Source: Chloroflexota bacterium
GTDB taxonomy: Bacteria; Chloroflexota; Dehalococcoidia; UBA3495
Direction of reading: 5' to 3'
Assembly (NCBI GenBank): GCA_002697005.1
Contig: NZUD01000026.1
Coordinates: 1-9,888 of the forward strand
Length of the DNA stretch: 9,888 nt
Numbering within the stretch: position 1 is the first letter of the stretch; every line of letters starts with the position of its first letter. Shown piece after piece: positions 5,176 through 9,888 of the stretch. A program made the translations under genes and the position numbers. A model generated the notes under the pieces. The model worked only from the letters and a program-made list of their open reading frames with translations, did not search any database and was not told the DNA's origin.

Positions 5176-7380
5176 CTAGTGATGGAACCGCTGCTGATTT
5201 TCGAACCCGACGGCGTCGGCGGCAATCAGCAGGTCCGGCCTATTGCCCCAGCGTTTCAGGAACCGCCCAAAATTCTTCCGGCTCAACTCGTCCCGCTGGT
5301 TATCATCCAGCTCGGTCCATTGGCGGTGTTCATGGCGCACCAAAGGCAGGCTCGAGTCGGCTATTATCTTAAAGCCTTTGTCCTTGAACTGGAAGCAATA
5401 GTCGATGTCCAGGTTACGATAGAAACGGAAGCACTCCCGCATTAACCCAACGGTATTGACCTCCTCCCTGCGAAACGCCATGCAATAGGCTTGCATAGCG
5501 TCGGCCTCTCCAGTGTCAACTTCTTCATGGAAGTGTTGCATGTCAGGAGTACTTAGCCCCCAAGGGCCAAAAATTCCTACCGCTGGGTCGTCGAGGGTAA
5601 GGGATACGGAATCTAGGATGTTGCCGGTTATCTCCGCCGAACCGTCCAAGACCACTATATTGCGTCCACGGCTCTGCATGAGACCAATGTTCTTGCTGGC
5701 GGCATCGCCGATGACGTGGTCACAGTGAACCACTCGTAATTCAGGGTGCTGTGTGAGCATCTCTTCCAGAAGTTCCCCAGTACCGTCCGTGGAGCCGTTG
5801 TCTATGACGAGGACTTCTATAGAGTAGTTTCCTGAGTGTTTTAGCATGCCTTCGATACAGCGTTTTACATCGCTAGGATACCCGTAAGCGTTCAATATAA
5901 ACGTGAAATCCAACTCGGGTGGCTGGTCCAGATAAGACTCAACTTCCCGCGATGACGACACCGAGGCCCACTTTTCCTGCCGCAGTTCTAAGGGCGTCTT
6001 GGGTCGGGCCCTTGTCCCAATCAGTGTGTCTTCAACCAGATAACCGTCGGACGCCAGCTGGCCGCGGAGGGAATCGGCGGTGGCATAATCGGACTGCTCC
6101 CTATGGCCGCCCCTGAGATCTAGAGTAGTGGTAATCTCGCTGGTAACGGCGTTCTCGGCCGGCGCCTTGTGCAGGTCTAGGCCGAACATCTCATCGAATT
6201 CCAACAATAGGTCCAATTTGGCACGTCCTGGCATTTCCGACCGAACCATCTCCCAGGTCAAAGCTAAGGCACGAGGCATGTCCAGGTCCGATTCAACGGC
6301 GTCCCAGAACTTGCGCCGGTACTCTTCTTTGTTGGAGTCATGGCCGCTCACTTCCGGCTCTTGGCTCCAGAGCCAAATACGATGCCGTAGGCCAGTCAGC
6401 GCCTTTTCGGCGGCCTTCAATGAAGTGAAGGTGAAGTTCATGCGGTGGCGGTAAAGGATGGTCATGCACAGGTAGCGGAAGGAGAGGGGCGAGAACCCGC
6501 GCTCAATGAGTTCTTCGATAAGGAAAACATTGCCAGCAGACTTGGCCATCTTGGCGCCGTCAGCCAGCAAGTGTTGCGCGTGTATCCAGTAATTGACGTG
6601 CTGGTGCTGGAAGGCAGCTTCGCTTTGGGCAATCTCGTCTTCGTGGTGAGGAAATACGTTGTCGACGCCGCCAGTGTGGATGTCAAAACTCTCTCCCAGG
6701 TACTTCGAAGCCATAGCCGAACACTCGATGTGCCAGCCGGGAAATCCCTCGCCCCAGGGGCTGGCCCATTTTACGTCGCGGCCAGGTTCTGCAGCCTTCC
6801 ACAACGTGAAGTCTCTGGGGTCTTTCTTCAAGGGGTCGGCTTCGGAGCGGACCCCCTCTAGGAGGTCACCGCCGAAATTGTTGGAAAGCTTTCCGTAGTT
6901 AGGGAATGAAGGAACATCGAAGTATAGGTTGCCGCCTTTCTCATAGGCGTGGCCGTTCGCGAGAAGAGTCTCATTGATGGCTATCATCTCTGGGATGTGT
7001 TCGCTGGCCCAGGGGAAGACGGTGGCTTCCATGATGTTCAGCCGCGCTTCGTCTCTGTGGAACCGGCCGGCATAAAGTTGGGCGATCTCTTGGATCGTCT
7101 TTCCCTCAGCCAGGGCCGCCATAATCATTTTGTCACCGCCAGTCTCGGCCAACTCCTGGCGCATATGGCCGACGTCGGTGATGTTTTTGATGTGGGTGAC
7201 TTGCATGCCACTGTGGATTAGCGAACGTCGCACCCAATCTGCCATGAGATAGGTGCGTAGGTTTCCGATATGGGCGTCGCGGTACACGGTGGGACCGCAG
7301 GTGTACATTTGAATAATCCCCGGCGTGGAGGGTTGTATCTCTTCAACCTTTTTTGCCAGGGTGTTGTAGATGCGGAGCAA
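5176..7380 (-). CDS. cysS: Cysteinyl-tRNA synthetase fused to a family 2 glycosyltransferase
   Basis: One uninterrupted frame encodes two complete modules. I place the start at TTG 7380: it gives Met-Leu-Arg-Ile-Tyr-Asn-Thr-Leu, aligns Cys28 with the first zinc ligand of E. coli CysRS, and has GAGG five bases upstream. A GTG at 7407 would add nine residues. Residues 1-468 are a full class I CysRS: the HIGH-type motif His-Ile-Gly-Asn (37-40), zinc ligands Cys28, Cys220, His245 and Glu249, the KMSKS-type motif Lys-Met-Ala-Lys-Ser (277-281), and the helical and C-terminal domains. After a linker (about 469-489), residues 490-690 form a GT2 domain with Asp527 in Ile-Asp-Asn-Gly-Ser-Thr-Asp-Gly-Thr, but Asp-Gly-Ser (579-581) instead of DxD. 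The synthetase charges tRNA-Cys in the cytoplasm; the role and acceptor of the GT2 part are unknown. There are no membrane helices. A thiol-biosynthesis ligase (MshC-like) is less likely because the tRNA-binding C-terminal domains are present. Confidence 0.9.
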   Translation of the reverse strand: MLRIYNTLAKKVEEIQPSTPGIIQMYTCGPTVYRDAHIGNLRTYLMADWVRRSLIHSGMQVTHIKNITDVGHMRQELAETGGDKMIMAALAEGKTIQEIAQLYAGRFHRDEARLNIMEATVFPWASEHIPEMIAINETLLANGHAYEKGGNLYFDVPSFPNYGKLSNNFGGDLLEGVRSEADPLKKDPRDFTLWKAAEPGRDVKWASPWGEGFPGWHIECSAMASKYLGESFDIHTGGVDNVFPHHEDEIAQSEAAFQHQHVNYWIHAQHLLADGAKMAKSAGNVFLIEELIERGFSPLSFRYLCMTILYRHRMNFTFTSLKAAEKALTGLRHRIWLWSQEPEVSGHDSNKEEYRRKFWDAVESDLDMPRALALTWEMVRSEMPGRAKLDLLLEFDEMFGLDLHKAPAENAVTSEITTTLDLRGGHREQSDYATADSLRGQLASDGYLVEDTLIGTRARPKTPLELRQEKWASVSSSREVESYLDQPPELDFTFILNAYGYPSDVKRCIEGMLKHSGNYSIEVLVIDNGSTDGTGELLEEMLTQHPELRVVHCDHVIGDAASKNIGLMQSRGRNIVVLDGSAEITGNILDSVSLTLDDPAVGIFGPWGLSTPDMQHFHEEVDTGEADAMQAYCMAFRREEVNTVGLMRECFRFYRNLDIDYCFQFKDKGFKIIADSSLPLVRHEHRQWTELDDNQRDELSRKNFGRFLKRWGNRPDLLIAADAVGFENQQRFHH

Positions 7381-7385
7381 AGGGA

Positions 7386-7393
7386 CCTCTTCT
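7386..7393 (-). promoter_or_regulatory. Ribosome binding site deciding the cysS start
   Basis: On the minus strand AGAAGAGG ends five bases before TTG 7380. The alternative GTG at 7407 has only a weak AGG four bases upstream. Together with the canonical CysRS N-terminus this favours the TTG. Confidence 0.55.
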
Positions 7394-7499
7394 ACCTGAG
7401 GTTGCACGCCTGATGTGGCGGGCTCAATCGTCTGGCCAGTTTAGCACGTTACCTGTCTCTGTGCCATAGAGAAATAACCCCTTACCGTCCTCATAATAG

Positions 7500-7773: not shown

Positions 7774-9888
7774 CTAGGGATGGTACTGGACCACTGCTCC
7801 AGCCAGTTTCAAGGACTCAATCTGCTCTCCGGTGTACCCAGCCTCGCTGAGAATCTCGTCGGTTTCTGCCCCTAACATGGGAGTAGGCCGCCCGATCCGC
7901 ATGGGTGTCTCGGAGAGCTTGGCCACGCTACCCAGATGATCTGCCTGTCCGACGTTTGGATGGTCCCGGCCCACGATGAGGCCCGCCTTGCGGATGTCGG
8001 CGTCGTCCCGGAATTCTTCGACAACCCGGTTGGCGATGACGCTAACTCCGGTGGGGTTGACCAGTTCCGCCCATTGGTCCCGGTTCTTCCCAGTCAATAT
8101 CTCTGATAGAGATTCCGTAAGAGCCTTGTCGTTACCGTCGGCCATCCCTGAGAAATCAGATAACGCAGTGAAGCGCTCCCAGGCTTCGTCGTCAGGGCAA
8201 TGGAGATACATCCAACCGTCGGCAGCCTGGTAGAGGCGTGATTTGGCAGAAAACCCGCGGACTCCCAGCCCTTCCGGCTCGTTTCTTTCATACCCTTCGT
8301 AATCCAGGAAGTAGGGCGATTGAAGCAGTCCGGCAGTTAGTGCCAAGCCGCTGTTGACCGTCTGTCCCAGGCCGGTCCGGTTGCGTTCGTGGACGGCCAG
8401 GGCAACCGCGTAAGCTCCCATCAACCCGGTACCATAGTCGTTCATAGGATAGGGCAACAGTTTGGGGGCAGAGTCACGGCCACCGCGCCGCACCTGGATT
8501 CCACTGGTGGCCTGGGCCAGTTGTTCCCAGCCAGGACGCTCAGCCCAAGGGCCGTCGTAACCGAAGGCGTTCAGGGATGCGTGGATGATGTCTGGTTTGC
8601 GTTTCTTCATCTCGTCGTAGCTGATCCCGAGCCTGGCCAAGCTGGCGGCGCGGTTGTTCTCTACCACCACGTCGGCTGTCTCAAGTAGCTTGTAGAAGAC
8701 CGCCAATCCATCTGGGGTTTTTAGATTAATATTTATGCTGCGCTTGCCGCGGTTGACGTCGGTGTTGCCGGCGATATCGTAGGGACGCGACGGGTCGTCA
8801 ATCTTGATGACCTCCGCGCCGAACTCACCTAGTGTGCGGCCGCAGGTCGGCCCGGCCAGGACTATGCATAGGTCTAGCACCCGTATGCCCTCTAGGGCGC
8901 TCATAATGTTTTCGCGGGCCTCCGGGTAAGTCACTTCTCGCCCAGGGGCATTAATCTCGGCCATAATCTCTGATGTGTGCTCTCCCAGAGTTGGAGCGCG
9001 TCCCTGGATCTCCCCCGGTGTCCCTCGCAGCCGCACCTGTACTCCTGGCTGCTTCATGCGTCCATATTGCGCGTCGTTAATCTCCCTAACCATCTGGCCC
9101 GCGATGGCATGCTCGTGGACGAGCCATTCGTCGATGGTCTTGCAGATTGTGCCGACGCCACTGGCATCGGCGATGTCATCTTCCCATTGCTTGGCGGTCC
9201 GCTCCTTGAACATATTCTCGAAGCGATCCTTCCACATGGAGATAGTTTCATCGGATACGTTGGCGCCGTAGAGGTCTTCTAGGTCTTCGATCCAGTCGGG
9301 GCGGTTGGCGGCGGCCATCAGTTGGCTGACGAACCGCTGGTACATACCGTGCGATTGGAAGTACCGGCCGTCGGCGCACATGTATTGGTGGGACATGACG
9401 TTCCGGGGCAGGTTGAACAGGTCTGGAGGATCGATGTCGTAGAGCTTGACCAGGTGGCGTCCAATGGCCGAGAACATGGCGCTGTGCATGGGCACTTCGA
9501 TACGCTGGCCTTTACCGCTGCGATCCCTTGCCACCATGGCCATTGTCACCGAAACAGATGCCACGATAGCGGCGAAGGTACTGGCGGCCGGTAAGGGAAG
9601 GAACAACGGTTCTTCGGTGTTGTCATAGGGCTGGTAGACGCCAGTGGAGGCGGCGACGATCCCTTCCCAACCCCTCTCATTGCGGTGGGGGTTGTCTTCT
9701 CCGAAACCAGGAATGGAGACATATAGTAGTCTAGGATTGTTCTTGGAGAGGACTTCGTATCCGATGCCCAGCCGGTCGGCTACACCGGGGCGGTAGTTCT
9801 CTATAACGATGTCGGCCTTCTTGGCGAGGGCTCGCGCATTATCCTGGCCTTCGGGAGTTTTCAGGTCAAGTTCGATCGACCGTTTGCC
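7774..9888 (-). CDS. Tandem two-domain CaiB/BaiF (class III) CoA-transferase, N-terminus off window
   Basis: The frame is open from the window edge to TAG 7774-7776: 704 residues, with probably 65-70 N-terminal residues missing. It is one polypeptide with two CoA-transferase domains. The first (to about residue 320) begins in Gly-Lys-Arg-Ser-Ile-Glu-Leu-Asp-Leu and contains Glu-Asn-Tyr-Arg-Pro-Gly. The second starts at Leu-Glu-Gly-Ile-Arg-Val-Leu-Asp-Leu (about 332) and repeats the pattern: Arg-Gly-Lys-Arg-Ser, Ala-Asp-Val-Val-Val-Glu-Asn, and Arg-Thr-Gly-Leu-Gly-Gln. The Asp that forms the CoA anhydride in this family is present in domain 2 (Asp484, codon 8437-8439), but aligns with Ser103 (codon 9580-9582) in domain 1. 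These enzymes move CoA between carboxylic acids. The two-domain layout recalls DMSP CoA-transferase/lyase DddD, but substrate and orthology cannot be judged here. A TTG at 9606 lies inside domain 1 and is not the start. Confidence 0.9.
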   Translation of the reverse strand, partial: GKRSIELDLKTPEGQDNARALAKKADIVIENYRPGVADRLGIGYEVLSKNNPRLLYVSIPGFGEDNPHRNERGWEGIVAASTGVYQPYDNTEEPLFLPLPAASTFAAIVASVSVTMAMVARDRSGKGQRIEVPMHSAMFSAIGRHLVKLYDIDPPDLFNLPRNVMSHQYMCADGRYFQSHGMYQRFVSQLMAAANRPDWIEDLEDLYGANVSDETISMWKDRFENMFKERTAKQWEDDIADASGVGTICKTIDEWLVHEHAIAGQMVREINDAQYGRMKQPGVQVRLRGTPGEIQGRAPTLGEHTSEIMAEINAPGREVTYPEARENIMSALEGIRVLDLCIVLAGPTCGRTLGEFGAEVIKIDDPSRPYDIAGNTDVNRGKRSININLKTPDGLAVFYKLLETADVVVENNRAASLARLGISYDEMKKRKPDIIHASLNAFGYDGPWAERPGWEQLAQATSGIQVRRGGRDSAPKLLPYPMNDYGTGLMGAYAVALAVHERNRTGLGQTVNSGLALTAGLLQSPYFLDYEGYERNEPEGLGVRGFSAKSRLYQAADGWMYLHCPDDEAWERFTALSDFSGMADGNDKALTESLSEILTGKNRDQWAELVNPTGVSVIANRVVEEFRDDADIRKAGLIVGRDHPNVGQADHLGSVAKLSETPMRIGRPTPMLGAETDEILSEAGYTGEQIESLKLAGAVVQYHP

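Follow-up and report, generated by a model that had tools for sequence, protein, structure and literature searches.

In the window analysed here, a 9,888-nucleotide stretch of DNA taken as a whole, a single minus-strand open frame encodes, from N to C terminus, a complete cysteinyl-tRNA synthetase (CysRS), a linker of ~30 residues, and a GT2 domain with a GT-A fold (Table 1). This fusion is old, clade-wide, and nearly fixed in its spacing, and its CysRS is a paralogue kept alongside the housekeeping CysRS. We tentatively read the protein as a bifunctional enzyme, in which a tRNA-Cys-charging paralogue would be coupled to a glycosyltransferase, and give this reading a little less than an even chance. 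Residues 11 to 467 match the cysS model TIGR00435 (positions 1 to 463 of 466) with 397 bits against a cut-off of 340, and residues 504 to 594 match the GT2 model PF00535 with 47.7 bits against a cut-off of 23.3; the GT-A fold was also recognized. The linker contains no stop and no frameshift, so the in-frame fusion reported in the preliminary description stands, with both models above cut-off in one frame. The TTG at 7380, with GAAGAGG 5 bases ahead of it, is the more likely start, since the relatives begin with MLRIYNT or LLRIYNT.

Table 1. Position of the fused frame and its parts in the window.
Feature	Window positions	Strand	Remarks
Whole fused frame	5176..7407	-	743 aa from GTG; probable start TTG 7380, 734 aa
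Full-length CysRS, residues 10-467	6007..7380	-	C-terminal anticodon-binding domain, ~residues 321-467
KMAKS signature, residues 286-290	6538..6552	-	
Anticodon-domain residues R436, D445, R448, D460	6024..6101	-	Alignment to E. coli R427, D436, R439, D451
Linker, residues 468-498	5914..6006	-	
GT2 domain, GT-A fold, residues 499-727	5227..5913	-	
GT2 DxD position, here D588-G589-S590	5638..5646	-	
D667-I-D669, presumed place of the GT2 catalytic base	5401..5409	-	D667 in 41/41, D669 in 23/41 fused rows
H692-E-H694-R-Q-W697 motif	5317..5334	-	H692, H694, W697 invariant in 41/41 fused rows

When the window protein was used as a query, both domains were present in all 120 matches listed (the best 120 of 7,997 database matches). 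The same was observed with a distant fused query (the best 120 of 7,951), whose named matches were Chloroflexi, Ktedonobacteraceae, and Chloroflexia. A genome scan with the GT2 domain returned 46 loci, all from Dehalococcoidia, SAR202, or Chloroflexi/Chloroflexota, 45 of which are fused, while the other (L012) ends at a contig end. The recurrence of the domain order across a clade, raised earlier as a check, is thus borne out. The genome sample consisted of Chloroflexota only: a GT2-domain relative (E value of 1e-30 or better) was found in 73 of 301 genomes, lying within a CysRS-containing frame in 41, cut at a contig end in 1 (G184), and present only as a separate protein in 31. In the class of the nearest genome, GT2 occurs in 25 of 197 genomes and, judged by frame length alone, 24 of these carry it in frames of 726 to 850 aa.

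The two domain matches are 25 to 33 residues apart in 82 of 87 frames (the gene of G001 being entered twice) and never more than 46. In comparisons of the window with 12 relatives, the linker had dN values of 0.04 to 0.33, with dS at least 0.96 or saturated; for the GT2 domain, dN was far below dS, which was often saturated. Purifying selection acts across the linker. A neutral gene fusion or an assembly artefact, allowed for in the preliminary description, is hardly credible: occasional broken frames (internal stops in a few of the matches listed and a split frame in L127) are all that could be set in its favor, and it is contradicted by the recurrence in the matches, loci, and class carriers described above, by the near-constant linker length, and by dN far below dS. 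We therefore rejected an assembly artefact. The coupled or extra function also proposed earlier is likely, because the fusion recurs across the clade and its GT2 half is still under selection.

All 20 SAR202-type fusion genomes also carry a stand-alone CysRS (in two pieces in G006), confirming the second cysS that had been suggested for checking. The stand-alone enzymes score 439 to 529 bits on TIGR00435, versus 402 to 427 for the fused ones, and the fused frame was rejected as the housekeeping CysRS of these genomes because all 20 have the stand-alone form. Only two CysRS over the cut-off, and no truncated MshC-like one, were found in the SAR202-type genomes. In the signature region, their stand-alone enzymes (L047-L066) read CGVTPY, versus CGPTVY in the fused ones. 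A full-length stand-alone CysRS also occurs in 34 of 41 further Chloroflexota carriers, being split into two pieces in two of these, and 4 others have part of one; no separate CysRS was found in the other three (G157, G034, and G232), possibly because these genomes are incomplete. Of these 41 carriers, 26 have a truncated third homologue, mostly of ~400 to 420 aa, which ends before the anticodon domain. The 54 fused rows group together (support, 99) in a tree of 118 CysRS, and the 20 truncated rows form a group of their own (99); in a more careful 66-row tree, the fused group has 100/96. The companion copies and the separate tree groups indicate that the fused protein is neither the housekeeping nor an MshC-like enzyme. 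In G016, a complete SAR202 metagenome-assembled genome (MAG), a single tRNA-Cys gene (anticodon GCA) was found among 48 tRNA matches; therefore, if the two CysRS each charge tRNA, they must use the same one, and a dedicated second tRNA-Cys was rejected on this one genome. Since both CysRS look competent and many Chloroflexota have more than one, the fused copy could be a back-up or stress enzyme, for example an inhibitor- or metal-tolerant one, with GT2 as a passenger. We give this little probability, because a passenger would decay, whereas the C-terminal half of GT2 is conserved as strongly as the catalytic domain.

The zinc ligands and both signature motifs noted in the preliminary description are present, with C37 kept in 53 of 54 fused rows and C229, H254, and E258 in all 54. 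That description is refined in that the second motif, following HIGN, reads KMAKS, with Ala at the third position of KMSKS (50 of 54 fused rows), and that the GT2 motif reads D-G-S. H46, K286, and K289 are also retained in the 54 rows. The anticodon-binding domain is present, and its residues R436, D445, R448, and D460, aligned with the E. coli residues that we take to read the anticodon, are kept in 53 to 54 of the 54 fused rows; the 20 truncated rows lack all four, save one stray D. Like CysS, the fused protein thus has a full-length match over cut-off, the zinc ligands, the signature motifs, and the anticodon domain, but it differs in being a paralogue, in KMAKS, in the loss of the terminal Trp, and in its C-terminal GT2. 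Retention of the zinc site, the signature motifs, and the anticodon-domain residues makes it probable that the CysRS half can still activate cysteine and charge tRNA-Cys. Over the last 50 residues of the anticodon domain, mean identity is 0.41 among 20 fused proteins versus 0.53 among 20 stand-alone ones from the same genomes, and this variable end and the lost Trp count against the bifunctional reading.

The preliminary description had likened the fusion to the mycothiol pair of MshC and MshA. MshA belongs to GT4, a different transferase family, and on the MshC model TIGR03447 the fused protein reaches 210.5 bits, below the cut-off of 485.1. One study describes MshC as a tRNA-free CysRS paralogue of mycothiol synthesis (PMC2922099). 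An anticodon domain and a fusion partner are both missing from MshC, whereas the fused protein has that domain and GT2, and MshC-like homologues form a clade separate from the fused CysRS. For five truncated homologues, scores were 341 to 415 bits with the cysS model and 337 to 375 with that of MshC (cut-off, 485). The truncated MshC-like homologues are those of L170-L189 and L292-L296, and MshA-like and MshB-like genes were found in the genomes tested. With its score below the MshC cut-off, its anticodon domain kept, and its position outside the truncated clade, the fused protein was rejected as an MshC equivalent, and the parallel is weakened.

Of the thiol genes proposed earlier for checking, two kinds were found, mostly below cut-off: MshA-like genes in 22 of 22 carriers tested (none over cut-off) and MshB-like genes in 21 of 22 (two over cut-off). 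Adjacent to the MshA-like gene of G016, two genes upstream, is a threonine-synthase-like gene, and no thiol gene cluster was seen around it. Together with the truncated MshC-like homologues, the MshA-like and MshB-like genes point to a possible mycothiol-like thiol pathway in Chloroflexota. These genes, together with the SAR202-type genomes having no truncated MshC-like enzyme beside their two CysRS, would suit a tRNA-free cysteine ligase, in which GT2 makes a glycoside and the CysRS half adds cysteine to give a small, mycothiol-like thiol. Such a ligase is distinctly unlikely, given the retained anticodon domain and key residues, the low score on the MshC model, the position of the fused CysRS in the tree, and the separate MshC-like homologue in 26 of 41 other carriers.

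None of the 78 aligned GT2 domains, fused or unfused, has the second Asp of the DxD motif, which is replaced by Ser, Gly, Ala, Asn, or Cys, and the first residue is D in 77 of the 78; chondroitin polymerase has Asp (D-x-D) at the second position. This loss counts against the bifunctional reading. The missing Asp is a metal-binding one, and one unfused clade has lost further GT2 residues, both of which would fit a GT2 half that has ceased to be a transferase and serves instead for binding, docking, or sensing (of a nucleotide sugar, tRNA, or a partner), with the protein acting as a second CysRS under its control. We consider this somewhat unlikely, because D588, E592, D667, H692, and others are nearly invariant in fused members despite 35 to 40% identity, and because the motif can vary. 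GalNAc-transferases (family GT27), the nearest folds to the GT2 half, work with D-x-H, so the changed motif is compatible with catalysis. The relationship to WrtF, chondroitin polymerase (GT2), and the GalNAc-transferases is distant, with <25% identity and D-x-D or D-x-H versus D-x-S here. All 41 fused rows share D563, D588, D636, R661, R664, D667, H692, H694, and W697, and several of these nine positions vary among 37 unfused rows (H692, H694, and W697 are kept in 32, 19, and 19 of them, respectively), a pattern suggesting one conserved task rather than decay. For the GT2 half of the putative bifunctional enzyme, sugar transfer is rather likely.

The possibility, raised earlier, that relatives carry GT2 as a separate adjacent gene holds in part: relatives are mostly fused (45 of 46 loci), and four genomes without the fusion (G135, G215, G298, and G231) have separate GT2 and CysRS genes arranged tail to tail, the distance between them being at most ~25 bases in three of the genomes and ~775 in the fourth. 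The same four genomes have another, higher-scoring CysRS elsewhere. These pairs suggest that a second CysRS and this GT2 associate even when unfused. In the 66-row tree, the tail-to-tail CysRS fall among the stand-alone enzymes, next to the fused clade (97/98) and not within it, and the tail-to-tail GT2 fall outside a weakly supported group containing the fused GT2. The link may therefore be parallel rather than inherited, and these positions, weak for GT2, count against the bifunctional reading; common descent of the fused and tail-to-tail pairing is possible. In the GT2 tree, 13 unfused GT2 form a clade within or adjacent to the fused group, and nine genomes combine an unfused copy with a fused one, which in one genome is cut at a contig end. 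Unfused GT2 genes of L097-L104, L107, L111-L113, L115, L116, and L118 adjoin oligoendopeptidase F and have lost several active-site residues; some have a mannose-1-phosphate guanylyltransferase-like gene, glucose-6-phosphate dehydrogenase, and gamma-glutamyltransferase as neighbors. Another unfused clade (L128-L130, L132, L137-L140, L142, L144, L145, and L148) lies directly before a methylmalonyl-CoA decarboxylase-like carboxyltransferase, near ETF genes.

Around the fused gene, SAR202-type loci contain a class III CoA-transferase, MeaB, a DUF429-like protein, a band-7 protein, and NfeD, the conserved neighbors being the CoA-transferase and MeaB. No sugar or thiol pathway gene was found among these neighbors, which are of general metabolism only, and this counts against the bifunctional reading. 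The neighbors appear to reflect chromosomal synteny, not a pathway. In the window, the CoA-transferase III gene (7774-9606, minus strand) encodes 610 aa from its listed start in a frame of 704 aa; its relatives are longer (about 770 to 800 aa), with two matched stretches, and many SAR202-type loci have this gene ahead of the fused one.

As a bifunctional enzyme, the protein would activate cysteine and charge tRNA-Cys with its CysRS half, and its GT2 half would use a nucleotide sugar as donor and glycosylate an acceptor linked to what the CysRS half makes, the two halves being coupled through a shared substrate or product. Candidate acceptors are Cys-tRNA, the tRNA held at its anticodon side, or a cysteine-containing compound made from Cys-tRNA. 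Sugars occur on the queuosine of tRNA in animals, and SunS belongs to GT2. The acceptor could be tRNA, as for the queuosine sugars, or a cysteine thiol, as for SunS. SunS-type S-glycosyltransferases, which act on peptides, transfer sugar to a cysteine thiol (PMC6405829), and this chemistry is already known within the broad class. The 50 matches listed for the GT2 half do not include SunS, although kinship may still exist. More specifically, with tRNA bound, GT2 might lie on its anticodon side and glycosylate a tRNA-Cys nucleoside or the thiol of the same protein's Cys-tRNA. This is improbable, but if true, bacteria would have a synthetase-linked system for glycosylating tRNA or aminoacyl-tRNA. 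A similar arrangement is LysX, a lysyl-tRNA synthetase fused to MprF, in which a duplicate synthetase is joined to the user of its product (PMC2713425). Both combine a duplicate synthetase and a second enzyme in one protein; LysX handles another amino acid, and its partner is a lipid lysyl-transferase and no glycosyltransferase. By analogy, LysX-type logic, in which the partner consumes the aminoacyl-tRNA, would apply to the fused protein.

Synthetases with added domains are already known, and we found no paper on a CysRS-glycosyltransferase fusion in the open-licence PubMed Central literature searched. Carriers of the fusion include Ktedonobacteraceae, Chloroflexia, and the SAR202-type Dehalococcoidia, a group abundant in the deep ocean. 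Overall, the old and conserved pairing suggests that cysteine charging and sugar transfer are probably coupled in these cells. Should the fused protein be active, it could make a glycosylated tRNA, open a new route to a thiol bearing a sugar, or control cysteine use in a new way.
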